A DNA stretch of 32,075 nt from the NCBI GenBank assembly GCA_946414345.1, contig CAMKOB010000012.1, forward strand, positions 1 through 32,075, given 5' to 3'. Of this stretch, positions 4,838 through 21,831 are shown one piece after another. Under the pieces are notes generated by a model. That model saw only the letters and a program-made list of their open reading frames with translations. It had not been told where the DNA came from and did no database searches. Origin of the DNA: an uncultured Candidatus Saccharibacteria bacterium. GTDB lineage: Bacteria; Patescibacteriota; Saccharimonadia; Saccharimonadales; Saccharimonadaceae. The position numbers and the translations under genes were made by a program. Within the stretch, counting starts at the first letter, position 1; each line of letters opens with the position of its first letter.

Positions 4838-5230
4838 ATGAAAAATATTATAAAATTGTTTATACCAGTTTTGGTGTGTGGGATAGTAATGATTGCAAGC
4901 ATTGTTAACACTGCCAGTGCTACAGCTGTTGCTTATCATCCTAATTTGGAAGTGGTCCAATGTGATGGTTGTCCAGAGGATCTTTTTGGCGATCGGGGGG
5001 CGTTTAAGACAATAACAAACACAGTGCTTTATATTGTGGGTGTTCTCGCCGTAGTGATGTTAATTATTGGTGGTATAAGATATGTAGTTTCGGGTGGCGA
5101 CTCGAAGAAGGTTACTGATGCAAAGAACACCATTCTTTATGCTATCATTGGTTTGATTATCTGTTTCCTTGCTTATGCAATTGTCAATTTTGTGATCGCA
5201 GCTTTGCCAAGTTCTACAAATCCTGCTTAA
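4838..5230 (+). CDS. T4SS-type pilin (VirB2/TrbC-like small membrane protein)
   Basis: The product has 130 residues. A signal peptide ends near residue 29 (TASATA), followed by a short extracytoplasmic region with a CDGC motif (residues about 42-45). Two hydrophobic helices lie near residues 63-84 and 100-121. The loop between them reads SGGDSKKVTDAKNTILYAIIGL, a pattern shared with the three other pilin proteins in this window. The family is the pilin-like subunit group of CPR-type secretion loci, presumed to form an envelope-spanning filament. The last codons overlap the convergent comF gene by 4 bp. Confidence 0.88.
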   Translation: MKNIIKLFIPVLVCGIVMIASIVNTASATAVAYHPNLEVVQCDGCPEDLFGDRGAFKTITNTVLYIVGVLAVVMLIIGGIRYVVSGGDSKKVTDAKNTILYAIIGLIICFLAYAIVNFVIAALPSSTNPA

Positions 5231-6575: not shown

Positions 6576-6923
6576 TTATTCACCGCTTCCTAAAAGCCTT
6601 ACGACAACGAAGTTGACGATAGTGGCAGCAAGAGCACAAACTATAAGGCCGATAACAGCATAAAGGATGGTGTCTTTGGCTTTTTTGACTTTACCAGCAT
6701 CACCAGCGGAGGTCATGTATTGAATACCACCCATCACGATAACTACAACACAGACGACGGCAATGACACCGAGAACAGAATTTAAGATAGTGATAATGCT
6801 GCCAGTAAGATCAACGTCAGTATCTCCGCCTGGGACTGGTTTTATTGTGCCGTATGCGGAATCTTTTCCTTCTGTTCCACTAGGCGTTGTTGAATCTGCG
6901 AATATTTTAATGATATCTTTCAT
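6576..6923 (-). CDS. T4SS-type pilin without a clear signal peptide
   Basis: The product has 115 residues. The N-terminal 40 residues are polar (SGTEGKDSAYG, then DTDVDLTGS), with no obvious cleavable signal. Two hydrophobic helices (about 42-66 and 84-110) flank the shared loop TSAGDAGKVKKAKDTILYAVIGL. AAAGGA stands before the ATG on the minus strand. It is the last gene of the minus-strand pilin group, 75 bp from the next. Lacking a signal peptide, it may insert by its first hydrophobic segment. Its exact role among the paralogues is unknown. Confidence 0.85.
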   Translation of the reverse strand: MKDIIKIFADSTTPSGTEGKDSAYGTIKPVPGGDTDVDLTGSIITILNSVLGVIAVVCVVVIVMGGIQYMTSAGDAGKVKKAKDTILYAVIGLIVCALAATIVNFVVVRLLGSGE

Positions 6924-6998: not shown

Positions 6999-7391
6999 TT
7001 ATTGTGTGATGGTTGTAATGACAAAATTGACGATAACGGCGGCGAGAGCAGCAATGACGAGCCCGATGCTTGCATAGAGAATAGCATCTTTGCCTTTTTT
7101 GACTTTACCAGTGTCACCAGCGGAGGTCATGATTCGTATGCCTGCGATTAGTATGACGGCTACTGCTGCTATGGATATGAAGCCGAGAATTCCATTGATG
7201 ATGTTGATAATTACTTTATCGGAAGTGTCGCCGGCTTTTCCTGGCTCGCAGCCAGAAGCGATTCTAACTTCTTCGGGGATTTCTTGGCAGTTGCAGGGGT
7301 CTGTGCAGGCGGCAAAGGCCGGAACAGATACAACGGTAAGCCCTACTATGGTAACAATTGTGATAAAGAGATTAATGATTCTATTTTTCAT
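6999..7391 (-). CDS. T4SS-type pilin with signal peptide and cysteine-rich N-terminus
   Basis: The product has 130 residues. A clear signal peptide ends VPAFA (about residue 27), then come CTDPCNCQEIPEE and another Cys, giving four cysteines that could form disulfides outside the membrane. Two hydrophobic helices surround TSAGDTGKVKKGKDAILYASIGL, nearly the same loop as in the 6576-6923 protein. Its start overlaps the end of the upstream double-pilin gene by 11 bp, which shows translational coupling. Confidence 0.88.
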   Translation of the reverse strand: MKNRIINLFITIVTIVGLTVVSVPAFAACTDPCNCQEIPEEVRIASGCEPGKAGDTSDKVIINIINGILGFISIAAVAVILIAGIRIMTSAGDTGKVKKGKDAILYASIGLVIAALAAVIVNFVITTITQ

Positions 7392-8172
7392 ATGGGAGCT
7401 CCTTTGCTATTGTGGTTTGTTCGATAAAACTAGCTTCTTTCTTGGCGTTTTGAACTAGGTTGGAAACAAAACCGGCGATAGCAAATGATAATGCAACGAT
7501 AGCTAGACCGATGAATGCGTAAAGAAGCGTGTTTTTGGCTTTTTGAAGCTTTTGGGAATCACCTGATGATGTGATATAGCCGATTGCTCCGATAATTACA
7601 AAGATTACGCATATGATACCTGAAATACCGATTGCCCAGTTGATGCCGTTGAAGAAGACGCTTTCAGCGTCAAAGTTTCTAAAGTTTTCAAAGGAGCCAT
7701 TTTGAATGAGTGCGAAGCGAATAGTGTTTAAGATGATATTGGAGAGCATGACGATTGCAAAGCCAATGAATGCACGGAGTAGGACCTTACGGCTGTTAAG
7801 TGCTTTTCCACTATCACCCGAGGAAAACATATGCAGATAGCCACCGTAGACAATGAAGCCTAGTAGTAAATAAATCGCGGCTGTGGTGATACCCTCAAAA
7901 ACATTGGAAACTATTATAACGATGTTAGCCGTGAGTTCGTCTTGGCCGTGGGGGTTTGGTTTAATTCCGCAGTCCCACGATTTAATATTGAGGAAGGTGC
8001 GGCAGGAGCCAAGTTCTTCTGTGCTTGAACTGCTGCTACCGCCCGCGTCATCGGTAAGTGTAATGGTGGCGTTTTTTGTGGCGTAAGTTGTTGGTGCGGT
8101 AAGGCTAAATGCTATAGCAGTAGATAGCATGATTGCTAGAATTATAAAAGTTTTTTTAAAGACATTTTTCAT
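7381..8172 (-). CDS. Tandem double T4SS-type pilin
   Basis: The product has 263 residues, twice the pilin length. A signal peptide (to about residue 31, TTYA) and a Ser/Gly-rich segment precede two copies of the pilin module. The first, about residues 85-155, carries FSSGDSGKALNSRKVLLRAFIGF. The second, about 178-245, carries TSSGDSQKLQKAKNTLLYAFIGL. Each copy has two hydrophobic helices around this loop, so four membrane spans are expected. The second copy keeps the AKNTLLYA form of the single pilins, while the first has diverged. It heads the minus-strand operon and could be a specialised tip, base or adaptor subunit; that is inference. Confidence 0.87.
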   Translation of the reverse strand: MKNVFKKTFIILAIMLSTAIAFSLTAPTTYATKNATITLTDDAGGSSSSSTEELGSCRTFLNIKSWDCGIKPNPHGQDELTANIVIIVSNVFEGITTAAIYLLLGFIVYGGYLHMFSSGDSGKALNSRKVLLRAFIGFAIVMLSNIILNTIRFALIQNGSFENFRNFDAESVFFNGINWAIGISGIICVIFVIIGAIGYITSSGDSQKLQKAKNTLLYAFIGLAIVALSFAIAGFVSNLVQNAKKEASFIEQTTIAKELPYEK

Positions 8173-8233
8173 GATAATTCCATTTATTATTTATTTAATA
8201 ATAGCATAGGCTCAAGAAATTGTGAAGATACCC

Positions 8234-8262
8234 TTGACAAAACCGCTTATGCGTGCTATAAT
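8234..8262 (+). promoter_or_regulatory. Consensus sigma-70 promoter of the VirB6-like gene
   Basis: TTGACA (8234-8239), a 17-bp spacer and TATAAT (8257-8262) form a perfect consensus promoter. The expected start near 8269 gives a leader of about 50 nt before ATG 8318. This rules out the GTG at 8222 as start codon. Confidence 0.9.
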
Positions 8263-8270
8263 TGAAGCAT

Positions 8271-8293
8271 GCCTTGTTAGGGAGGCAATTTTT
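8271..8293 (+). promoter_or_regulatory. Small hairpin with T tract in the VirB6-like leader
   Basis: GCCTT (8271-8275) can pair with GGAGGC-type bases up to 8286 around a six-base loop, followed by AATTTTT. The stem contains the only Shine-Dalgarno-like sequence, GGGAGG, which is about 32 bases from the ATG and so not in place for initiation. A weak attenuator is possible. Confidence 0.35.
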
Positions 8294-8317
8294 AATATTT
8301 ATTATAACGCTAATGTT

Positions 8318-11300
8318 ATGATGGTAAAAAGATTCTCAAAAAATAAGATAGGAAAAGCCATTTTTGGTTGTCTTTTTGGTATTATAATGTTGTTTTCTGT
8401 GGCAATGGTAGGTTTATCAACGCCGGTTTTTGCTATTGAAGGTGACAACTCCTCTGTTCAAGAGGAACAAGTAGAGTCGGATTCGGATAATCAATCGGGA
8501 GAAACAGAAGAGGGTGAGCAAGAGAGCGAAGAGCCAGCTACTCACGAAGTAGCGCATTCTAGTAGGCCGCAGGCTTCGTGCGAAAATAGTTTAGGCGCGA
8601 TTGGCTGGTTAGTTTGCCCAACAACCGGTAAGCTTGCGGAGGCGGTAGACTGGCTGTATGGTAAGATTGAAGAGTTTTTGATCATCAACCCTGTTGAAAT
8701 TAAAGATGGCTCGCCGATCTATGAGATTTGGAAATACATGCGCGGGATTACAAATATAGTATTTATTATATTCTTATTGATAGTAGTTTACTCGCAAATC
8801 ACTGGTCTTGGAATAACGAATTATGGCATAAAGAAGGTATTGCCAAAGCTAATTGTGGCAGCAGTCTTAATGAATCTTAGCTTTATTGTCTGTTCGTTGG
8901 CGGTGGACTTGTCAAACGTAATAGGTTCGAGTCTTAGGGGTGTATTTACTGCTGTGGAGGAATCGACGATTGGTACGATGGCAATTGGCGGTAATGAAAA
9001 TGGAATGTATGTGACGATGGCTGAAGCATATTCTTCGCTTGCGGCTGGGACGGCGTTGGGTATTGGTGGGGGGCTAGTTGCTTTTGAGACTGGCGCAATT
9101 TGGATGGCAATACCAGCGGCGCTTGGTGCGATTGTGGCAGTGGTGGTGGGCGTACTTACGATTGCGCTTCGCCAAGCAGTAGTGGCGCTTTTAATAATGA
9201 TTTCACCGCTTGCTATTGTGGCATATATGTTACCAAATACTGAAGAGTGGTTTACTAAATGGAAGAAATTACTGATTAGAATGTTGGTGTTTTATCCAGT
9301 ATTTTCGTTATTGTTCGGCGCTTCGTCGCTCGCGGGATTTGCGCTTATTGCTTCGGCCGTTGCAAAATCGGATGGATTCATGTTGATTGTGGGTCTTGTG
9401 GTGCAAATTTTCCCATTATTCTTCGCTTGGAGCTTGATGAAGATGAGTGGTACAGTGCTTGGAACTATCAATACGAAATTGCGTGGTCTTATGGCAAAGC
9501 CGCTTGCCTCGACAAAGAGCTGGGCAGAATCGCGTCGTGAATCCACAAAGATGAAACATCTAGCATCTAACAATGTCTATACTCCGTCATTGTATCTGAG
9601 GCAATATTTAAATGATAGAAAAATCCATCGCGAAGAGGAATTAAAGGAGAACGCTGAAACTGTTAAAAATAGAGGTTTAGCATATAGTGTAAAAAGGCAT
9701 TATAAAGATTTTGATAAAAGCGTGCTAAATGAAGAGGGTAAGACTGCGTATGCCGATCAGGCGAGAAATGCACAATATCAGAACGTGATGATTCGTCATA
9801 AAGCCAATATGAATAAAGGCTTTAGTTGGGCACTTGAAGCTGGTTCAGCGGAGTGGAGGCAAGTGAGCGAGATTGATAAGGCAAACGTTAAAGCGTTTGA
9901 CAGAATGAAGCAGGAGCAGGCACGTGCTGAGAAAATTGACTTAGAAAATGCCAAAGGTTATCGCAATCGTATGGAAGCAGCAATGAATGCCCATATGGAT
10001 GATTTGCATTGGGATAAAGTCAACAAGGAAGGGAAACTTGATTACGAACGACATTTTACATCGCGAGATAGTGTTGCTTTTAAAGAAGCTAAAGAAAGAT
10101 ACGATGCGGCAGGCGAAGTGATGGATAATAATGTGTCGGATATTCAATATGCAGCTGCGTATGCGGCACACGCGTATGATACGCAGAATAAAATTATTCA
10201 AAATAAATTCCAGAAGTATTTTGAATTAATTCCTCCAACGAGAGATGTAAGATATAGGCTCGAAGAGCTTTCGAAGCTGACCGAAATGAATCTTGATGGC
10301 ACATTCAAGACTAAGGCGGTGGATAATATTGACACGATTATTTCTGGTTTGAGAATACTAAATCAGCGTGGCGATACAGATTTTATAAAGGATATTCTAG
10401 ATGATGTTTGGGATCCGAAATATGGTGGCTTGGAACTTGGTACGCATGCTTCGCAGGCTTTGGCGAGTTTCTTGATGTTTGATGTAAAAGACAATGATCC
10501 GTATCTCAGAAGATTTGGCAAGTATATTAATTTGGAGACGGCTAGAAGATTTGACCACAATGAGCGCCAGAAAGAGACCGTAGATTATGATGAATATGTG
10601 AAGGGTTATCATGTTGAGCCCGACGGTAATATTATGTATGCGAAAAAGGATATCGTAAAGTTGATGGAAGGTACTTCGTTAGATGGAGTTGAACGAACGG
10701 CTTTTGATAATTATGACAATAGTCTCAGAAAGGTATACACAGATTCCGAAGGAAAGGTCGATATAGAAGCATATGAGGCAAGGCGTAAGGAAATAGATAA
10801 AGCGACTGGTCCACAATTTATTTCGGCAAATTTGAAATACTTATCTGGTAGCGAACAGATTGTGAGTGCAGTAAAATCTAAGACAGGTTTTGCAGCGGTG
10901 CAAGATAAGACGACCGGCAAGTATAAGATGGTGCCTATTTGGGATGATCCAAAGGAAGATGAAAAACTTTTCAAGAATCTTACTGATACTGAAAAGGTTA
11001 ATGCTAAGAAGGGTTTGAAAGAATTCTATCGTGTACAAACTTTGCAATATTTGAAAGACCAAACTCCGGCACAAATCTTGGGACTTCGTTCAGATTTTAA
11101 AGAACCAATGCTAGAACACTTATCTGCGTCTTATCTTCTGGATGAAGATGGTAATTTGGATGCAGAGAAATATGGTATACATGAGCAAGCGCTGTTCGAA
11201 ATTGATAATGATGATTATGGTGAAACTGATCCTCGAGAAATTGCCAAGAAAAGAACGGCGGCTAAAGAGGCGCTTAGAATGTATGAAGCGCGTGAGGAAT

Positions 11301-12007
11301 TTTTGGAGCTCTTGTATAGAATGGGTAAACTTGAACAGATTGATAAATCTAAGCGATCTGGTGCTGGTAATAACGCCAAAGACTGGGTACGTGAGCTATT
11401 GTTGCTTGATAGCAATACTGGACTTAGGGAATGGATTACTAGACGCAATCTAAGAGAGAGTCAGACTGCTCAGACTGCTGGTGGCAATACAGAGGTGTCT
11501 GCAACGACGGAAGCGTCAACACATTTTGCAAGTCCAGAAACTCAAAATAATCAAAATATAACCCAGGAAGTTGATATCCAAAAAAAAACGATGACGCCTG
11601 ATCAGCTTGCGCAGGAAAAGCAACGTAGTGTTGAACAGCAAGTTAAGAGAGAACAGCAGAGAGAACAGCTGAGAAAAATGCTGAAGGAGCTTAAGGAGCA
11701 ACAACGGCGTGAGGCTGACCCGAATATATCACCGGATAAACAAAACTTGTCAGTTTACACATCAGCTGACATCGCAGATTTTACTACACATATTGATGAC
11801 TTGTGGTATGATATGCGGGATAATGACGATGCGGATGGGCAAGAAGAGTTCTTTGAAGCGACGCGCGATTACGTGGCGAATGCTATTGGTAGCGAAAGCT
11901 ACGTGGTGAAGATGTACGAGAAATATTACAATGACAATCCAGATGGTGATATGTATGAGTTGTATAAATTCTTGATAGAATTAGTAGAATCTTTGCTTGA
12001 TGAATAG
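8318..12007 (+). CDS. VirB6/TrbL-like polytopic membrane protein with a giant soluble C-terminal region
   Basis: The product is about 1229 residues from ATG 8318 (ATG 8321 is an alternative). A signal peptide ends STPVFA, followed by an acidic Glu/Ser region. Then come hydrophobic helices: NIVFIIFLLIVVY, a KLIVAAVLMNLSFIV segment, a long stretch ending VALLIMISPLAIVAYML, and two more up to about 9450. This is the TrbL/VirB6 layout, the inner-membrane channel of type IV secretion. From about 9500 onward some 830 residues are soluble, charged and predicted helical, with Gln/Glu/Arg coiled coil near 11600-11710. VirB6 proteins are usually near 300 residues, so the tail is exceptional. It is divergent from the pilin operon. 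Confidence 0.85.
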   Translation: MMVKRFSKNKIGKAIFGCLFGIIMLFSVAMVGLSTPVFAIEGDNSSVQEEQVESDSDNQSGETEEGEQESEEPATHEVAHSSRPQASCENSLGAIGWLVCPTTGKLAEAVDWLYGKIEEFLIINPVEIKDGSPIYEIWKYMRGITNIVFIIFLLIVVYSQITGLGITNYGIKKVLPKLIVAAVLMNLSFIVCSLAVDLSNVIGSSLRGVFTAVEESTIGTMAIGGNENGMYVTMAEAYSSLAAGTALGIGGGLVAFETGAIWMAIPAALGAIVAVVVGVLTIALRQAVVALLIMISPLAIVAYMLPNTEEWFTKWKKLLIRMLVFYPVFSLLFGASSLAGFALIASAVAKSDGFMLIVGLVVQIFPLFFAWSLMKMSGTVLGTINTKLRGLMAKPLASTKSWAESRRESTKMKHLASNNVYTPSLYLRQYLNDRKIHREEELKENAETVKNRGLAYSVKRHYKDFDKSVLNEEGKTAYADQARNAQYQNVMIRHKANMNKGFSWALEAGSAEWRQVSEIDKANVKAFDRMKQEQARAEKIDLENAKGYRNRMEAAMNAHMDDLHWDKVNKEGKLDYERHFTSRDSVAFKEAKERYDAAGEVMDNNVSDIQYAAAYAAHAYDTQNKIIQNKFQKYFELIPPTRDVRYRLEELSKLTEMNLDGTFKTKAVDNIDTIISGLRILNQRGDTDFIKDILDDVWDPKYGGLELGTHASQALASFLMFDVKDNDPYLRRFGKYINLETARRFDHNERQKETVDYDEYVKGYHVEPDGNIMYAKKDIVKLMEGTSLDGVERTAFDNYDNSLRKVYTDSEGKVDIEAYEARRKEIDKATGPQFISANLKYLSGSEQIVSAVKSKTGFAAVQDKTTGKYKMVPIWDDPKEDEKLFKNLTDTEKVNAKKGLKEFYRVQTLQYLKDQTPAQILGLRSDFKEPMLEHLSASYLLDEDGNLDAEKYGIHEQALFEIDNDDYGETDPREIAKKRTAAKEALRMYEAREEFLELLYRMGKLEQIDKSKRSGAGNNAKDWVRELLLLDSNTGLREWITRRNLRESQTAQTAGGNTEVSATTEASTHFASPETQNNQNITQEVDIQKKTMTPDQLAQEKQRSVEQQVKREQQREQLRKMLKELKEQQRREADPNISPDKQNLSVYTSADIADFTTHIDDLWYDMRDNDDADGQEEFFEATRDYVANAIGSESYVVKMYEKYYNDNPDGDMYELYKFLIELVESLLDE

Positions 12008-12068
12008 TTAATACTGTTTTGGGATGAGTGGAATAGCTTTTTGTTTATGCCTAAAAGTATTATTATGA

Positions 12069-12080
12069 TATAATATATTT
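12069..12080 (+). promoter_or_regulatory. Leaderless-type promoter of the PrgI-family gene
   Basis: TATAAT at 12069-12074 is followed by six bases (ATATTT) and ATG 12081. No ribosome binding site fits between them. Confidence 0.65.
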
Positions 12081-13133
12081 ATGGCACAATACAAGGTGCC
12101 TCAAGATGTTGAGGCAGAAGACAAACTCATCGGGCCGTTTAGTTTTCGGCAGTTTGTTTATCTTTTAATTGCGGGTGGATGCATCGCTACGACGGTGGGA
12201 TTATTTCAATTGTTCCCGATACTTGCAATAATACCGATTGCTCCGGCGTTGTTGTTTTTGGTATTAGCTTTACCTTTAAAGAAGGATCAACCAATGGAGA
12301 CATATCTTGCGGCGATTGTTTCTTATTATCTAAAGCCTCGAACAAAGAAATGGACACCGGGGCAGCGCGAATCAACTATTTTGATTACGGCTCCAAAAAT
12401 CGTCGAGGATGTTAGGACGCGTGATTTGTCTGAAGAAGAGGCAACACATAGATTGTCTTTTCTGGCCAACGTTGTAGATACTCAGGGTTATTCCGTAAAG
12501 GGGGCGACTGGTTCGTCGATGCGGGAGGATTTGGTGGCGGAGGCAAATGCGACGCAAGATATGTTTGATGTCTACAAAACGTCAAATTTGAATCAAGCGA
12601 TTCAGGACGATGCGATGGAGAGACGAAAGGAAGCAATTAATAATATGCGTGAAGCAATTAAGCGTAGTGAAACTGCAAATATGGGTAATATGGCTGATTA
12701 TGATCGTGAACTTAGCCATGGAAAGGTTTTGGCGCCAGAGCCTAGTAAGACACAGCCGCCTGTAATAGAAACAATTCCGGAGATGCCAATGGTGACATCA
12801 GCATCGAATGCACCTTCAATTGTAGATACGGCGGTGGTGCCAAATTTGGCATCGGCGCCGAATCCGACGTCGAAGCCAGAAGAGAGCGTTGTTATAATGC
12901 CGGATGCAAATACATATCGGCAGGTCGAGCAATTAGCGCAACAGCCTGAGCAAGAAGAGGCGGTACAGGAAGCGTCGGTGCAGGGGACTACGCAAGACGA
13001 CGAGACAAAACCGCTAAAGCCTGCTATAATGGAATTAGCAAATAATAATGATTTTTCGGTTGCGACTATCGCGAAAGAAGCTAATAGGATAAACGGAAAG
13101 GAAGCTGGAGAAGTATTCGTCTCTTTGCATTAA
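12081..13133 (+). CDS. PrgI-family type IV secretion membrane protein
   Basis: The product has 350 residues. The first 100 match the PrgI family: YKVPQDVEAEDKLIGPFSFRQF, then two adjacent hydrophobic helices (about 24-70, with GGCIATTVGL and ILAIIPIAPALLFLVLAL), then an amphipathic ETYLAAIVSYYLKPR. PrgI proteins sit next to VirB4 in Gram-positive and CPR type IV secretion loci and probably do the job of VirB3, docking the ATPase to the membrane. Residues 110-350 are an unusually long, low-complexity Pro/Glu/Gln/Ala tail, probably disordered. It begins a run of five same-strand genes with small gaps or overlaps. Confidence 0.9.
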   Translation: MAQYKVPQDVEAEDKLIGPFSFRQFVYLLIAGGCIATTVGLFQLFPILAIIPIAPALLFLVLALPLKKDQPMETYLAAIVSYYLKPRTKKWTPGQRESTILITAPKIVEDVRTRDLSEEEATHRLSFLANVVDTQGYSVKGATGSSMREDLVAEANATQDMFDVYKTSNLNQAIQDDAMERRKEAINNMREAIKRSETANMGNMADYDRELSHGKVLAPEPSKTQPPVIETIPEMPMVTSASNAPSIVDTAVVPNLASAPNPTSKPEESVVIMPDANTYRQVEQLAQQPEQEEAVQEASVQGTTQDDETKPLKPAIMELANNNDFSVATIAKEANRINGKEAGEVFVSLH

Positions 13134-13137
13134 AAAT

Positions 13138-13956
13138 ATGGATTCACAACAACCTCAACAAATTTTACCAAATCAAAATCCACAAATGCAACCGCAGATG
13201 CAGAATATGGGTGCGGTGGCAATGGGTGCCGCGGCGGCGATGCCGGTGTCGCCAAATCGTGATTTGCCAACATCGACGCAGTCATCACTTTTGATTTCGG
13301 AAATTCGTGATAACGTGGTGATTATGAAGGATGGTTCTTTCCGCGCGGTAGTGGCCTGTAAATCAATTAACTTTGATCTTATGAGTGATGTGGAGCGTGA
13401 ATCAGTGGAGTATTCGTATCAAAACTTCTTAAATTCGCTTAGATTTACGACGCAGATTTTGATTAGGTCGCAAAGGGTTGATATTGGGCCATATATTGAA
13501 CGATTAATGGAAGTGCGTCGAAATAACGATAATATGTTACTTGGTGTTTTGATGGATGATTACATTAACTTTATTGATGTTTTGTCGCAAGAAGCTAATA
13601 TTATGGATAAATCATTCTTTATAATAATACCTTATTATACGTCTCCAGATGCAGAAAAAGTAATACAGCAGACAAAGAATTTCTTTAAGTCTTTTACGAA
13701 AGCTAAAGAAGTCGAGGTGACTAGGATTGATAGGACAACTTATGATAAGGCAATGACGGAAATTAATAACCGTGTTGATTCAGTGATGTCTGGCTTGTTC
13801 CAAATCGGCATCCAGTCTGTAAGATTAAAGACGAGGGAGCTTGCAGAGCTTTATTATAATTTCAATAATCCAGATACAGCGGTAAGGGAACCGTTGGTGG
13901 ATTTTTCAAAAATGGCGACATTGTATGTGAAGAAGGGAGAAAAAGAAGATGAGTAA
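13138..13956 (+). CDS. TraC/VirB4 N-terminal-domain-like protein
   Basis: The product has 272 residues. A Gln/Pro/Met-rich N-terminus (1-50) is followed by a domain starting LLISEIRDNVVIMKDGSFRAVV. It continues through RFTTQILIRSQRVDIGPYIERL and ends SGLFQIGIQSVRLKTRELAELYYNFNNP. This matches the N-terminal, non-ATPase part of TraC/VirB4 proteins, including the typical ELAELYYNFNNP close. There is no Walker A. Only 4 bp separate it from the PrgI gene, and its last 8 bp overlap the VirB4 ATPase gene (ATGAGTAA), so a stoichiometric complex is likely. It could anchor the ATPase to the channel. Confidence 0.8.
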   Translation: MDSQQPQQILPNQNPQMQPQMQNMGAVAMGAAAAMPVSPNRDLPTSTQSSLLISEIRDNVVIMKDGSFRAVVACKSINFDLMSDVERESVEYSYQNFLNSLRFTTQILIRSQRVDIGPYIERLMEVRRNNDNMLLGVLMDDYINFIDVLSQEANIMDKSFFIIIPYYTSPDAEKVIQQTKNFFKSFTKAKEVEVTRIDRTTYDKAMTEINNRVDSVMSGLFQIGIQSVRLKTRELAELYYNFNNPDTAVREPLVDFSKMATLYVKKGEKEDE

Positions 13957-15784
13957 GAAAAAGAGGCAATTGACGCCAGCTGAGATTGCAGCGCAAGCTG
14001 AAGCGGCAGAAATGGCGGAGATACAAAAGATTTTTGAACAGGGGACAAATACTCTACGTGATTTAATTTCTCCATCAGCAATTGAAATTCATTCGGATTA
14101 TTTTAGGCTTGGAACTAAATATGGCCGAACTTTGTATGTGTATGGATATCCACGTACGTTATATACTGGGTGGTTGTCGCCGATCATCAATATGGATGAA
14201 GTTATAGATGTATCAATGTATATTTATCCTGTTGAATCTGCGGTAGTGATGAAGAACTTACGTACGAAAGTAACACAGCTTGAGGCGTCATTAAACCTTA
14301 ATGCAGAAAAAGGCAAGGTGCGTGATCCAGAACTAGAGGCGGCGATTACTGATGCTGAGGAATTGCGTGATAAATTGCAGGTGGGCGCAGAAAGATTCTT
14401 TAGGTTTGGATTGTATATTTCTCTTTGGGCAGATTCTTTGGATGAGTTGAAGTTTGTACAACAAAAAGTTGAGACGATTTTCGGTCAGCAGATGGTGTTC
14501 TCGAAGGTGGCATCGTCACAGCAGGAACAAGGCTTGAACTCGGTTATGCCACAATGTATGGATCAGTTGCAAATTCGACGTAATATGAATACGGGCGCAA
14601 TTTCGACTTCATTCCCGTTCACTTCGGCTGATTTGACACAGGATAAAGGTATATTGTATGGTATCAATATGCATAACAATGGGTTAGTGATTTTTGATAG
14701 GTTCTCACTTGAAAATGCCAACATGGTGGTGTTTGCAAAGTCTGGTGCCGGTAAATCTTTCACAGTGAAGCTTGAAGCTTTGCGTTCGATGATGGTGGGG
14801 TCGGAGATTTTGATTATCGATCCAGAAAATGAATACCAGAGGCTATGTGACGCAGTAGGCGGTGCGTATATACGTTTGTCATTAAACTCGGATGTAAGAA
14901 TTAATCCGTTTGATTTGCCAAAGGTGGTAGATTCGGAAGATGCAAATGATGCTTTGCGCGCTAATTTAGTGACGTTACATGGTTTGTTTAGATTAATGCT
15001 TGGTGGGGCTTCTCAGTCTGCTAGTGGCGGTACGCAAGCGGCACCGGTTTTGACGGCTAATGAAGAGGCGGATCTTGACCAAGCTCTAATTGATACTTAT
15101 GCAAGAGCGGGTATTACTTCTGACCCATTAACTCATCAGTCAATGCCACCAACGATTATGAATTTGTATGATACTTTACTTCATATGGAGGGGACGGGTC
15201 CGGCTTTAGCACAGAGGCTTCGAAAGTATACTAGTGGTACATTTGCAGGTATTTTCTCTCAGCAATCTAACGTAGACATTAATAATCAAATGGTGGTATT
15301 TAATATTCGTGACCTTGAAGATGAACTTCGTCCGGTGGCGATGTATATCGTGTTGTCGCATATCTGGAATATTGTGCGCGCAAATAAGAAAAAACGCATT
15401 CTGATTGTGGATGAGGCGTGGCAATTGATGCAATATGAGGATTCAGCGAATTTCTTGTTCTCGCTTGCGAAGCGTGCACGTAAATATTATCTTGGTCTTA
15501 CAACAATTACCCAGGATGTGGAAGATTTTATGGGTCAGAAATTAGGACGTGCAATTGTGGCAAACTCGTCGATGCAGCTATTATTAAAACAGTCTTCCTC
15601 GGCGGTGGATGTGTTGTCCGATGTGTTTAAATTGACAGAAGAAGAGAAACGAAGGTTAGCGAACTTCCCGGTGGGGCAGGGTCTATTCTTTGCGGGGCCA
15701 AACCATGTACATATTCAGATTATCGCTTCGGAAACTGAGGAAGGTTTGATTACGACTAACCCGGCTGATAAAAGTAAAGTTTAA
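13949..15784 (+). CDS. VirB4-like type IV secretion ATPase
   Basis: The product has 611 residues. A VirB4 N-terminal domain covers about 1-230. A RecA-like ATPase domain follows with Walker A KSGAGKSFTVK at about residues 264-274, IIDPENEYQRL shortly after, Walker B ILIVDEAWQLM at about 484-494, and the sensor region GLTTITQDVEDF. VirB4 enzymes power substrate transfer and pilus assembly at the inner membrane. The protein is shorter than the usual 750-850 residues, and the missing N-terminal part may be supplied by the preceding gene, whose end it overlaps. It ends 20 bp before the cell-wall hydrolase gene. Confidence 0.95.
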   Translation: MSKKKRQLTPAEIAAQAEAAEMAEIQKIFEQGTNTLRDLISPSAIEIHSDYFRLGTKYGRTLYVYGYPRTLYTGWLSPIINMDEVIDVSMYIYPVESAVVMKNLRTKVTQLEASLNLNAEKGKVRDPELEAAITDAEELRDKLQVGAERFFRFGLYISLWADSLDELKFVQQKVETIFGQQMVFSKVASSQQEQGLNSVMPQCMDQLQIRRNMNTGAISTSFPFTSADLTQDKGILYGINMHNNGLVIFDRFSLENANMVVFAKSGAGKSFTVKLEALRSMMVGSEILIIDPENEYQRLCDAVGGAYIRLSLNSDVRINPFDLPKVVDSEDANDALRANLVTLHGLFRLMLGGASQSASGGTQAAPVLTANEEADLDQALIDTYARAGITSDPLTHQSMPPTIMNLYDTLLHMEGTGPALAQRLRKYTSGTFAGIFSQQSNVDINNQMVVFNIRDLEDELRPVAMYIVLSHIWNIVRANKKKRILIVDEAWQLMQYEDSANFLFSLAKRARKYYLGLTTITQDVEDFMGQKLGRAIVANSSMQLLLKQSSSAVDVLSDVFKLTEEEKRRLANFPVGQGLFFAGPNHVHIQIIASETEEGLITTNPADKSKV

Positions 15785-15791
15785 TATATGA

Positions 15792-15803
15792 TATAATATA
15801 TAT
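15792..15803 (+). promoter_or_regulatory. Leaderless-type promoter of the cell-wall hydrolase gene
   Basis: TATAAT at 15792-15797 and a six-base ATATAT stretch lead straight to ATG 15804. The box begins right after the stop of the ATPase gene. Confidence 0.65.
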
Positions 15804-17630
15804 ATGAAATTCCTGAAGAGATTTTTGTTAGGTTTGGCGGTGGCAGTAATTTGTTTAGTAGCGCCAACTTCGACTTGTCTTGCAGCAAAGCAACTTTCAG
15901 AAAACGACTTGTATTTTTATGGCTTGAATGGAATTTATTACTTCTTCCCAGGTAAAGAGCGGGGCTGCTACTCATCCACTAATTTGAGCGGTGATACTGT
16001 GATGGCGAAGGTGGTAAATTATCTTTCTGGTAACAATGAAAGAGGTTTTGTTCTTTCTCAAAATGGTATTGCGGGTATTTTGGCAAACTTTGAGGGTGAG
16101 TCTGGGTTTAATCCTTTTAGATTTGAAAACGATGAGAAAACTGGCCCGGGATATGGTATAGCACAGTTTACTGGTAGCGGTGGCATTAATGGTTCTCCTA
16201 TACTTGGGCCGTTACGTTCTGACTCAAGGACGTCAAATTACTTTAATGAATATTTTGATGAAAAGTATACTGCATACGATCCAGAAACTGGTTTTCCTAA
16301 AAAGGAAGTACCAACTGAGGTGCTCGATGCTTGGTTAGCAGTGCAGCTTGATTATTTCTTTGGTCCGTCTAGCCAGTTTGAGACTATTAAAGTTGGCTCA
16401 TATCGTGATATGGGCGGTACTATGGGGCTTAATTATATTTCTGATAATATGACACCTCACGAGGCTATGGATGCGGCGAAAACACCGGAGGATGCGGCAC
16501 GGATATTTGTCTGGATTATGGAGAGGCCTAGCGATAAGAGTTTGGCTTCTAGTAAGCGTGGTGAGCGTGCAAGCTATTGGGCGGACTATGTTGACTCGAT
16601 TCTCGGGAATTCTCTTAGCCCAACTAGTACAAGTAGTTCAAATGATGGCAGCGATGTGACTGTTATTGGGGATTCTATCACGGTTGGGAGTCAAGAGGAA
16701 ATACTTGAGTTAATGCCCCAGGCAGATATACATGCCCAAGTTAGCAAGCAGTTCTATACTGGTAGTTCGGAAAATCCTGGTGGGTTTACGATTTTGCAGG
16801 AGTTGGCTGAAAGTGATAGTTTAAGGGGGACGGTAGTTTATGCTTTGGGGACTAATAGCAGCGTAACGGCAGCTCAAGTTGATGAGGTGGTTAAAACTGC
16901 TGGTGAGTCAAGGAAAGTAGTTTTTGTTACTAATTATTCGACTTCGAATGATTTCTTGGGCAATAATAATAATTATTCTAAAGCAAAGAATAGCTACTCG
17001 AATGTCTCGATTGCCGATTGGAAGGCAAGAGTTCAATCTCAGCCTAGCGAGTACTTAGGTGTTGATGGGGTTCATCCGAATGCTAAAGGCCAGGAGACTT
17101 TTGCGAGAATTATTACTGGTGCTGCAAGTGGGGCCGAGACAATCGTTTCTGTCTGTAAAATTGGTACTGTAGATGGTGGGTTGACTGAAGAACAGGCGCA
17201 AAGGTTGGCGGATTATTACAATGGTCCTGCCGTGGACGGGTCTTTGCTTGCCGTGGGAACAAAGCTTAATTGCGTGTCGTTTTCGCAGTGGTTTACAACA
17301 TTCTTCACCAATTTATCATGGGTGTTGGGTGATGGTAAGGATGTTGCACATGCACTTTCTGTGAGGTATGGCTTACAGCGTGGTGATGTGCCTCGACCAT
17401 TTGCTGTATTTTCTGTTACTGGTGGTGAACATGGTCATACTGGGGTGGTTGTGGCGGTTAATGGTGATGACATTATAACAATCGAGGCTGCATATCAAAA
17501 ACATGATGCATGGGTTGTGCACCATAAAATGAGTAATAATGAATTTGTGAATGGACAATATGGAGGACCTTTTGTATATTTGGATTCGTTAGTTGACCTA
17601 GGAAAACTAGCTGAAATAGTGGGGGATTAG
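15804..17630 (+). CDS. Secreted three-module cell-wall hydrolase: lysozyme-like, SGNH and CHAP domains
   Basis: The product has 608 residues. A signal peptide (about 1-28) precedes a phage-tail-lysozyme-like domain (about 60-270) with FEGESGFNP and the likely catalytic Glu99. A Ser/Thr linker (280-288) leads to an SGNH/GDSL-type hydrolase (about 285-440). That module has IGDSIT (Ser291 as nucleophile), GTN at 349-351 and DGVH with Asp421/His424. A C-terminal CHAP/NlpC-like cysteine peptidase (about 465-600) has LNC (Cys490) and GHTGVVVAV (His545). Together these could cut peptidoglycan glycan strands, remove O-acyl groups and cleave stem peptides. In a type IV secretion operon this is the VirB1-like place. 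It may open the bacterium's own wall or that of a host cell. Confidence 0.88.
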   Translation: MKFLKRFLLGLAVAVICLVAPTSTCLAAKQLSENDLYFYGLNGIYYFFPGKERGCYSSTNLSGDTVMAKVVNYLSGNNERGFVLSQNGIAGILANFEGESGFNPFRFENDEKTGPGYGIAQFTGSGGINGSPILGPLRSDSRTSNYFNEYFDEKYTAYDPETGFPKKEVPTEVLDAWLAVQLDYFFGPSSQFETIKVGSYRDMGGTMGLNYISDNMTPHEAMDAAKTPEDAARIFVWIMERPSDKSLASSKRGERASYWADYVDSILGNSLSPTSTSSSNDGSDVTVIGDSITVGSQEEILELMPQADIHAQVSKQFYTGSSENPGGFTILQELAESDSLRGTVVYALGTNSSVTAAQVDEVVKTAGESRKVVFVTNYSTSNDFLGNNNNYSKAKNSYSNVSIADWKARVQSQPSEYLGVDGVHPNAKGQETFARIITGAASGAETIVSVCKIGTVDGGLTEEQAQRLADYYNGPAVDGSLLAVGTKLNCVSFSQWFTTFFTNLSWVLGDGKDVAHALSVRYGLQRGDVPRPFAVFSVTGGEHGHTGVVVAVNGDDIITIEAAYQKHDAWVVHHKMSNNEFVNGQYGGPFVYLDSLVDLGKLAEIVGD

Positions 17631-17640
17631 AGGAGTACAA

Positions 17641-18552
17641 ATGAACAACATTAATGGTATTATTGCTGAGATAAAGAAGAGGCCAAGGGTAGTTATAGGG
17701 GTGATTGGTGGCATTATCATAATTATATTGGGCTTTATATTGGCTGGGCTTTTGAGAACCAATCCATATGGTAAGGAAATTAGAATTGATAATTTATCAT
17801 CTGTTTATACCAATATGCCGCAGAGTCAAAAGGATAGTATTTATAGTGGACTTTATAATGTTGTGAAGTTAAATGTACCGGAGGGGTATGAGATTCCGGA
17901 ATCGGGGGCTGTTGTGAGAAATGGAACAAGCAAGCAGGAATTTGATGAAGAAACAAATATTTACACTGGTGAATTTATTGTTGACATAGCAAGTATTAAA
18001 CAGTCATATCGTGTGTGGTTTGAATGGTCTCCTTACGAAAAAAATCCATACCTCGGTGGTTATGCTGTCGTGGTTACTTGTCTGCCACAAGATCTTCAAA
18101 TTTATAATAGTTGGACTTGTAAGAATTTGATTGGAGCTGATCCTGAGTGGGAAAATTCTTATCAACTGGATTACACTTTTGGGGCTAAAACGTCATTAGT
18201 AGTAGTGGATACTTTGTCTAGTTTTCTAGTATCGGAATACCCAGAAAGTGGCGTGTATAATATTACGATTGACGAGGCTTCCTTAAGAAGGAATTACGAG
18301 CAGCCGGATTTGACGTACTTCTTTAAAATAGCGTTAAATCAGGAGGAGTTCTTTGATGTGACTGTAAGAATGGATAATTCTTATGGCAGTGATTATGTGG
18401 CAATTTATGTAAGCGGGGATGATGTCCAAAAAGGTTTCGTATTGACGAAAAATGGCGATCCAATGGCGAGCTTATCCGAGTGGCTAGTGAATGTATCTGG
18501 CAATGGGCAGCTATCAATTGAGAATCTTTCTTTGGACGCGGCAATTGAGTAA
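17641..18552 (+). CDS. Unrecognised single-pass membrane protein of the secretion operon
   Basis: The product has 303 residues. A short basic cytoplasmic N-terminus is followed by one transmembrane helix (about residues 17-38) and a beta-rich extracytoplasmic region of about 260 residues with two Cys (TCLPQ and WTCKN) that could pair. AGGAG stands just before the ATG, and the gene follows the cell-wall hydrolase by 10 bp. Single-pass proteins with an outside domain in such loci often do the work of VirB8 or a pilus adaptor, but no family motif is visible. The next CIRCE promoter closes the operon. Confidence 0.75.
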   Translation: MNNINGIIAEIKKRPRVVIGVIGGIIIIILGFILAGLLRTNPYGKEIRIDNLSSVYTNMPQSQKDSIYSGLYNVVKLNVPEGYEIPESGAVVRNGTSKQEFDEETNIYTGEFIVDIASIKQSYRVWFEWSPYEKNPYLGGYAVVVTCLPQDLQIYNSWTCKNLIGADPEWENSYQLDYTFGAKTSLVVVDTLSSFLVSEYPESGVYNITIDEASLRRNYEQPDLTYFFKIALNQEEFFDVTVRMDNSYGSDYVAIYVSGDDVQKGFVLTKNGDPMASLSEWLVNVSGNGQLSIENLSLDAAIE

Positions 18553-19941: not shown

Positions 19942-21831
19942 TTATTTGCGGAAGCGATTGCGAGTGAGACCGCGTTTGGCTGAATAGAATACTAGATAAA
20001 GTAGTCCTGTACCAATAGTTGCTATTCCGACATAGATGATGGCTGTAATGCTATCTTGTTGGCCGGTAAAAGAGCCAGTATCTGGAACTAATAGGTCGCT
20101 AACTTTGCTTAGATCGCCATTAGAAAGACGGCAAGTAAGTCCAGTAAAACCTTTTGCGGCTTCGTCGGTGAAGACACTACATTCTGGGATGTCTTGGAAG
20201 CTTCCAAAGTAAATCCATTCTGAGGAAGGGTCTTTGCGATAGAATAAGCCATTCTCGCCATTTATTTTGACAATTGTATATTGATATGGCTCATGATCGC
20301 TGTCTATTATTGATGGAGTATTCTCGCTTATAACATCTTCATCGATTACTGGGTATTCCTTGGTTACCTTGTAAAATGCTTCGCCAATACCGGCAATAAA
20401 ATCTTTCCATTCATCTGTAATGGTTTGCCAATTGGTGTGTCCGCAGGATGAGCCGATTTTGGAAACTATGCAGATTACACCAGTTTCGGTGTTGAGGTAT
20501 TGTTCGGCTTTGTTTGAGAGAGTAGGCCCATATGCCGTGAAACCTAGTGCAGTGAGTGTTTCGAAGATTGGTGCAGTTTCTAGGACTGGTGCTGGCTGAT
20601 TGTCTTTTGTTGTAGTGATTATTAGCTTAGAAATTTTGTTAAGTTGGATATATCCTTTAACTGACTCTGGTTTAAAATGTGGATTATAATCATCAAATAG
20701 GGATGATTCTTCTTCTGTAGGGTTGGTGGATTTAAGAACGCACCTGATTGAATTTGCACCCTCACGATAGGCACTTTTGCGAATTTCTATATTATTTGCG
20801 TATGCACGTAGATACCACATACTGTGGTCGTCGCTACGTGTGGATGACCAAATATCGCCTCTTGTGTTAGCATCTTGTACCGAGCCATCAAAGAAATATC
20901 CGGAAAGAGGGATTGATAACTGATACTGGAGGCTAGATGGACTTGTAGCGTCCATCTCTTTTACAATACCTTCTCCGATTGGGCATTCTTCATTTCCGAT
21001 TAAGGAACATAGTTTTAGAAAATTATCTGAGGCGCTTTGGTTGCCAGTGGGTAGACGCCAGCCTGCTGGACAAATGTCCTCAGTAGCGTTACCGGTTGAT
21101 GTAGCTTGTTCTGTTTCGTTACCAAAGCAGTAGGTGCCAGCAGAAGCGGCGCAGAAATTATAATAAATGCCGTATTTATGTGAACCGTTGCCCCATTGTT
21201 CGTTGGCTGGACCGGTAATATTTATGCTGTTCTTATTGATCATTGGTATGCTGTAATAGTTTTGCTCGGCGCTGGTCCAAGTGGAACTAACTCCTGCAGT
21301 GGCATATTTACCGTTTGGATCGGTTTCTGGGTCGCGTGAAGTGGTTCCAAGTAGGTAACCTAGGGAAGTATCGGAAGCATTGGTGTTTGTGGAATTTAAT
21401 ACGCTGCCGTTTGTGATGAGGTCGAGAGCTAAATTATCAAGCATCCATACGTTACCATCTGCGAGTTTTGCTACGGTATAGGTAGTATTGTCTCGATTAT
21501 CTTTAAGCTTAATAAATGAATTGTCGCATACTTTTGAGATATCAACGGAGCCAAGTGTGTAGGTTTGCATAATACCCGAGTTGGTAGGTAACATAATGCA
21601 ACCATTATCGTCGGACGAGTATAGCTGTATGGTTTCATTTGGATGAGCTGTGTTGTAGGTATTTATCATTGATTGATATTTGGTGGTTAAAGCATCAATC
21701 ACGCTCATTACGGCTGCATCTTCATTAGTGTCGGCGTAGGTGTTTTGGGTTGTTGCAGTTTTGATTATGCCGAAACAAGAGCATAACACTGCCCCGATGG
21801 CCAGCGACACCTTTGCTTTTGTTCTTTTCAT
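19942..21831 (-). CDS. Surface protein with FISUMP-type domain and VPDTG wall-sorting tail
   Basis: The product has 629 residues. A signal peptide covers about 1-34. The N-terminal half carries the pattern of the Fibrobacter major paralogous (FISUMP) domain: TVAKLADGNVWMLDNLALDL, CPAGWRLPTG, a WSSTRSDD segment and SIRCVL. The second half is a less characterised extracytoplasmic region. The C-terminus has VPDTG at about residue 582, then a hydrophobic helix and a basic end (AKRGLTRNRFRK), which is the layout of sortase substrates. It is thus probably anchored on the cell surface and may mediate adhesion. AAAGG precedes the ATG. It lies 58 bp downstream of the FAD oxidase gene on the same strand. 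Confidence 0.87.
   Translation of the reverse strand: MKRTKAKVSLAIGAVLCSCFGIIKTATTQNTYADTNEDAAVMSVIDALTTKYQSMINTYNTAHPNETIQLYSSDDNGCIMLPTNSGIMQTYTLGSVDISKVCDNSFIKLKDNRDNTTYTVAKLADGNVWMLDNLALDLITNGSVLNSTNTNASDTSLGYLLGTTSRDPETDPNGKYATAGVSSTWTSAEQNYYSIPMINKNSINITGPANEQWGNGSHKYGIYYNFCAASAGTYCFGNETEQATSTGNATEDICPAGWRLPTGNQSASDNFLKLCSLIGNEECPIGEGIVKEMDATSPSSLQYQLSIPLSGYFFDGSVQDANTRGDIWSSTRSDDHSMWYLRAYANNIEIRKSAYREGANSIRCVLKSTNPTEEESSLFDDYNPHFKPESVKGYIQLNKISKLIITTTKDNQPAPVLETAPIFETLTALGFTAYGPTLSNKAEQYLNTETGVICIVSKIGSSCGHTNWQTITDEWKDFIAGIGEAFYKVTKEYPVIDEDVISENTPSIIDSDHEPYQYTIVKINGENGLFYRKDPSSEWIYFGSFQDIPECSVFTDEAAKGFTGLTCRLSNGDLSKVSDLLVPDTGSFTGQQDSITAIIYVGIATIGTGLLYLVFYSAKRGLTRNRFRK

Follow-up and report, generated by a model that had tools for sequence, protein, structure and literature searches.

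TraG of pIP501 and VirB1-89K of S. suis are T4SS wall hydrolases that combine a glycosidase with a CHAP domain, as does the protein described here; they are set apart from it by what, to our knowledge, has been described of them, namely an SLT-type glycosidase, no SGNH domain, and no swapping of cargo. PrgK of the Enterococcus plasmid pCF10 (PMC11323569) is encoded in a T4SS operon and, like the present protein, contains a muramidase of the phi29 gp13 type and a C-terminal CHAP domain. Its layout (LytM-MUR-CHAP) differs in including a degenerate LytM domain and lacking an SGNH domain, and its operon lies on a conjugative plasmid. PrgK owes its activity to the gp13-type muramidase, and the CHAP domain, for which no activity was detectable, may be regulatory (PMC11323569).

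According to the available portions of two reports, Patescibacterial T4SSs are related to monoderm conjugation machines, with relaxases mostly missing (PMC12102498), and the T4SS is essential for epibiotic growth of Southlakia epibionticum (PMC10633639). The same portions place peptidase and lysozyme homologues of S. epibionticum ML1, also essential for epibiotic growth, just downstream of virB4 (as cited in PMC12102498; PMC10633639), which is the slot occupied by the protein studied here. These portions mention neither an SGNH domain nor the N-terminal tag described below, and the likeness drawn here is one of genomic slot. Saccharibacteria probably use the T4SS to live on other bacteria.

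The SGNH catalytic domains of the peptidoglycan O-acetyltransferase OatA carry the signatures GDS, (V/I)(G/S)(R/V), G(T/V)N, and Dx(I/V)H, and in isolation these domains have weak esterase activity, lower than that of Ape by a factor of 45-252 (PMC5697884). O-acetyl groups often block muramidases (PMC11323569), and the Neisseria de-O-acetylase Ape1 forms a complex with the lytic transglycosylase LtgA and stimulates it (PMC7083599). The Ape1-LtgA pair would resemble the present protein in bringing a de-O-acetylase together with a glycan-cutting enzyme, and differs from it in being two separate proteins that serve turnover of the own wall.

Results

A hydrolase gene in a chromosomal T4SS operon

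The stretch of DNA that was analyzed (the window; 32,075 nucleotides) is a whole contig of the 861-kb genome (98.8% complete) of a rumen-type Saccharibacterium. It carries a chromosomal T4SS operon with the following features.

4838-5230, + strand: T4SS pilin (PF18895)
6576-6923, - strand: T4SS pilin (PF18895)
6999-7391, - strand: T4SS pilin (PF18895)
7381-8172, - strand: T4SS pilin (PF18895)
8222-12007, + strand: VirB6/TrbL-like protein, 1261 aa (weak Pfam match; position conserved in relatives)
12081-13133, + strand: PrgI (VirB3-like)
13138-13956, + strand: VirB4 N-terminal ORF, 272 aa, separate, overlapping
13949-15784, + strand: VirB4 C-terminal ATPase ORF, 611 aa, 80-99% identical across relatives
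15804-17630, + strand: T4SS wall hydrolase, LYZ-SGNH-CHAP, 608 aa (ORF, profiles, orthologues)
17641-18552, + strand: partner gene, one N-terminal TM helix and an outside domain of ~260 aa

The order of the operon is pilins, VirB6, PrgI, VirB4, hydrolase, partner, and DnaJ. With VirB4, PrgI, VirB6, and four pilins upstream, the hydrolase has the T4SS setting of VirB1/PrgK-like enzymes. Two ORFs that overlap (272 and 611 aa) together encode VirB4, and the same split occurs in the relatives examined. Searches of the genome with PF02534 and PF03432 found neither a T4SS-DNA_transf coupling protein nor a relaxase of the MobA/VirD2 type, which sets the system apart from conjugative T4SSs and agrees with the published view of Patescibacterial T4SSs (PMC12102498).

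The ORF at 15804-17630 is complete, starts with ATG 20 nt after VirB4, and encodes 608 residues in one chain with an N-terminal signal, which bears out the description, in an earlier note on this DNA, of one secreted protein directly after VirB4. Its closest named relative, from a Candidatus Saccharibacteria genome of water-buffalo abomasum, is 76% identical over the full length, and other full-length orthologues, from at least five further species of the genus, are 51-59% identical. Comparison of the window with locus L034 indicated purifying selection across the whole gene (dN/dS about 0.10), with the SGNH module most constrained (about 0.03), followed by LYZ (0.09) and CHAP (0.19); dS is high, near saturation, and these ratios are rough. 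Relatives were absent from scans of viral contigs and from phages, so a recent phage origin is unsupported.

Three catalytic modules in one chain

The chain is divided as follows.

15804-15887, + strand: signal peptide, residues ~1-28 (N-terminal hydrophobic stretch, likewise in orthologues)
15885-15968, + strand: conserved N-terminal tag, residues ~28-55, consensus FAQNNIxFYDPxxx..C, here FYGLNGIYYFFPGKERGC
15981-16598, + strand: muramidase of the phi29 gp13/PF18013 type, residues ~60-265, catalytic Glu E99 at 16098-16100 (profile, alignment)
16644-17156, + strand: SGNH module of the OatA catalytic-domain type, residues 281-451, with S291 (16674), D421 (17064), and H424 (17073) (profile, alignment)
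17166-17621, + strand: CHAP peptidase, residues 455-606, with C490 (17271) and H545 (17436) (Pfam, orthologue alignment)

The muramidase matches PF18013 (Phage_lysozyme2; E 5e-18, above the Pfam cut-off), and a profile made from the family alignment matches phi29 gp13 at 3.5e-18. E99 aligns with E45 of gp13, and this Glu is invariant in the diverse family. The CHAP module matches PF05257 (E 1.3e-7, above the cut-off) and, weakly, solved structures (PDB profile match, 0.015). In seven full-length orthologues with 50-77% identity, C490 and H545 of the CHAP module, as well as S291, N351, D421, and H424 of the SGNH module, are invariant. Catalytic residues for three chemistries are thus present in a single protein, as the earlier note had seen, and they are preserved among homologues, where that note had named mutation as grounds for refutation: Ser and His of the SGNH module are kept together in 83 of 95 aligned copies.

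Peptidoglycan hydrolysis by the 608-aa protein is predicted from these catalytic residues. Judged from sequence, the protein has the combination of glycosidase and CHAP/peptidase that characterizes VirB1/PrgK-like T4SS wall hydrolases, and the earlier note was right about the three modules, the secretion, the T4SS setting, and the likeness to the VirB1-like lysozyme-CHAP proteins of Gram-positive conjugation systems. Because the CHAP domain of PrgK showed no detectable activity, the one described here may be regulatory. The folds of the three modules rest on sequence profiles; an AF2 model of the full chain from a two-sequence alignment had a pLDDT of 31.

The SGNH module resembles the catalytic domain of OatA

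The Pfam match of the SGNH module is weak (PF00657, 6e-4, under the cut-off). In a profile search against solved structures, the module matched the SGNH domains of S. aureus OatA (PDB 6vjp, E 1.4e-13) and S. pneumoniae OatA (5ug1, 5e-11), whereas the best acetyl esterase in the same search scored 0.005. The residues that define the SGNH superfamily are in place, with Ser in block I, Asn in block III, and Asp/His in block V. The blocks read GDS, VSK, GTN, and DGVH, which fits the OatA signatures except that block II ends in K, not R/V. By sequence, the module is thus closest to the catalytic domain of OatA, with which it shares the catalytic triad, the block signatures, and the best profile match. 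It differs from OatA in being fused to hydrolases and in the absence of the AT3 membrane donor domain (no PF01757 was found by Pfam in the 608-aa protein).

The earlier note had called this module an esterase. The SGNH assignment holds; the esterase activity is not established, given that the nearest solved relatives are O-acetyltransferases and that the OatA signatures are matched. Since the module stands without OatA's membrane donor domain, function as a peptidoglycan O-acetylesterase is plausible. A Val that promotes transfer is present in the window SGNH and is kept in 34 of 95 family members; most of the family has S, G, D, or N instead. This Val was rejected as a deciding criterion, as a protein of the same genome with AT3 and SGNH domains has Gly at the aligned position. 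That full AT3-SGNH (OatA-like) protein is encoded at L051:7181-9124, and a second, stand-alone AT3 protein is encoded at G000:C4:54668-55600.

Wall hydrolases in Corynebacterium MOBF plasmids (L220:8365-10512, L221:8368-10509, and L222:6368-8509) also contain an OatA-like SGNH domain, with an intact triad, inside a T4SS-linked enzyme encoded in a conjugation operon. They differ from the window protein in module order (M23-SGNH-SLT-like-NlpC/P60, the SLT-like region being read by eye), in lacking the tag, and in belonging to actinobacterial conjugative plasmids.

An N-terminal tag shared by the hydrolases

Directly after the signal peptide, nearly all hydrolases of the family share a tag of ~30 aa. 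The tag profile was seeded with ten hydrolases and then iterated on hydrolases. Of the 157 hydrolase-like ORFs in the fetched loci it matched 127, as against 3 of the 1373 ORFs of other kinds, and many of the remaining hydrolases have a weaker form. Because of the way in which the profile was built, two checks were added. A scan of the whole genome gave exactly one match, the window protein. In 20 further regions, chosen by tag match alone and mostly from other genera, 21 proteins bear the tag, and all but one of them have recognized wall-hydrolase domains; in most of those regions that come from outside the genus, the tagged hydrolase closely follows VirB4. Across the class, the tag profile matched in 158 of 393 genomes, representing 20 genera, and it leads to such hydrolases in about 150 of the 393.

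Pfam scans gave no family at the tag position, and the profile did not match the OatA-like protein or the Corynebacterium hydrolases. A description of the tag was not found in the open-licence literature, which was searched with queries other than the tag itself. The tag appears to be a new feature: a short, constant N-terminal element joined to freely swapped wall-cutting enzymes.

The attached modules are exchanged repeatedly

Of 108 good genomes of the genus, 104 have VirB4, whose copies are 80-99% identical, and the cargo turns over while VirB4 stays this similar. In about 60 fetched loci, the space between VirB4 and DnaJ either contains no wall hydrolase or is filled by wall hydrolases that differ widely in architecture; these join a muramidase or a glucosaminidase, some including SGNH and some not, to CHAP, NlpC/P60, C39, M15, or M23 (modules outside Pfam were labeled with our own profiles, built from Pfam-located seeds). 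We collected more than 80 related proteins that bear SGNH, and nearly all relatives found in the class fall in one family. When mapped onto a tree of 85 SGNH modules, the type of attached peptidase requires at least 22 changes, compared with 40 when shuffled; the types are clustered on this tree yet have been swapped repeatedly. Rather than a one-off insertion, the SGNH module is an accessory that is widespread in the lineage. Its description as unusual therefore stands in relation to characterized VirB1-like proteins and fails within its own bacterial family, in which hydrolases often carry it.

The idea that SGNH is tied to muramidases alone was ruled out by proteins that combine it with a glucosaminidase (L045 and L116). 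In some otherwise intact hydrolases (L042:8071-10188, L118:5097-7646, L121:7833-9458, and L047:9590-13894), catalytic residues of the SGNH module are lost, and these modules look dead.

The partner gene

Relatives of the partner gene follow many hydrolases, including those in multi-copy clusters (L047 and L048), and the partner is missing or unrecognizable behind many others. An AF2 model from a two-sequence alignment (pLDDT 50) was of low confidence and has a helix-plus-sheet arrangement twice. Foldseek with this model found nothing significant; among its hits, at E 0.2-1.1, were cystatin-, NTF2-, and TraM/VirB8-like folds, and the loose likeness to NTF2/VirB8 or cystatin folds is only a lead. 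In one genome, three giant hydrolases (1032-1434 aa) are clustered at L047:4218-18530, with small partner-like genes nearby.

Discussion

We consider it fairly probable that the protein is a dedicated PrgK/VirB1-like T4SS peptidoglycan hydrolase, marked by the tag and carrying exchangeable cargo tuned to host walls. From the modules, triads, operon, tag, and swapping, all of them read in sequence, we infer the activities, acetyl direction, target wall, and tag role that follow. Sec would export the hydrolase, and the tag may dock it to the T4SS, to its partner protein, or to the surface; that the tag stays the same as the cargo changes points to the machine as the docking site. By analogy with PrgK, the muramidase would cut glycan strands and the CHAP module would cut stem peptides or cross-bridges, or sense peptide. 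The substrates of the OatA-type SGNH module would be muramic acid acetyl esters, which it most likely takes off to clear the way for the muramidase. Removal ahead of the muramidase is the simplest reading because O-acetyl groups block such enzymes and because Ape1-LtgA provides a precedent; the OatA-like fold and the transfer-promoting Val keep acetyl transfer possible. With tag and T4SS constant, swapping of glycosidase, SGNH, and peptidase could tune the enzyme to different walls, and the turnover of cargo suggests adaptation to those of hosts. Attack on the wall of another bacterium, as the earlier note had proposed, is compatible with an epibiotic lifestyle and with peptidase swapping.

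Several observations count against this reading and shape its rivals. The OatA-type SGNH is a transferase fold whose isolated domains are weak esterases, and it also occurs beside glucosaminidases and has lost catalytic residues in some proteins. The module could instead acetylate muramic acid around the breach, in the own or the host wall, and so limit lysis, with a separate AT3 protein or O-acetylated peptidoglycan as donor. The closest solved structures, the matched signatures including the Val, and the two AT3 proteins of the genome, one full and one stand-alone, speak for such a transferase, but the T4SS operon has no AT3 gene, the Val is exchanged in most of the family, and glycan protection fused to a muramidase would oppose itself unless spatially separated; we regard it as unlikely. 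We are about equally skeptical of a module that binds carbohydrate or removes acyl groups other than MurNAc acetyl: the versatility of the fold and the loss of catalytic residues in some members would allow it, but the module specifically resembles OatA domains that act on peptidoglycan, and most members keep the triad.

The preferred reading of a host-directed hydrolase must also be weighed against one in which the enzyme acts only on the epibiont's own wall during channel assembly, the classical VirB1 role. VirB1, TraG, and PrgK have this function in conjugation (PMC12102498; PMC11323569), and an OatA-type SGNH in a T4SS hydrolase needs no predation, because Corynebacterium conjugation systems also have one. 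Repeated peptidase swaps within a genus whose VirB4 is at least 80% identical argue against it, as the chemistry of the own wall would be expected to vary less than this within a genus, although other forces could do the same, and we hold it to be possible but doubtful. If the hydrolase were an antibacterial effector for secretion and the partner encoded downstream its immunity protein, the repeated gene pairs in the multi-copy clusters would be explained; the partner, however, has an N-terminal TM helix and no recognized inhibitor fold, and is so often missing or unrecognizable that we think this quite improbable.

If the hydrolase reading is extended to the family, the FAQNNIxFYDPxxx..C tag might define a polymorphic system of Saccharibacteria: wall-cutting and de-O-acetylating enzymes would be interchangeable cargo, docked to the T4SS by the tag and swapped to match the wall chemistry of each bacterial host. 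We offer this tentatively, as conjecture; if true, cargo would predict host range. It yields the testable idea that wall-cutting cargo tracks host wall chemistry, and the findings point to a defined, purifiable set of enzymes in the Saccharibacterial T4SS.

Other genes

Locus L054 encodes, at 11626-18219, a 2197-aa protein with seven Fib_succ_major-like repeats, and a single relative lies in the window at 19942-21831. A GmrSD-type restriction enzyme is encoded on the same contig at 27478-29652.
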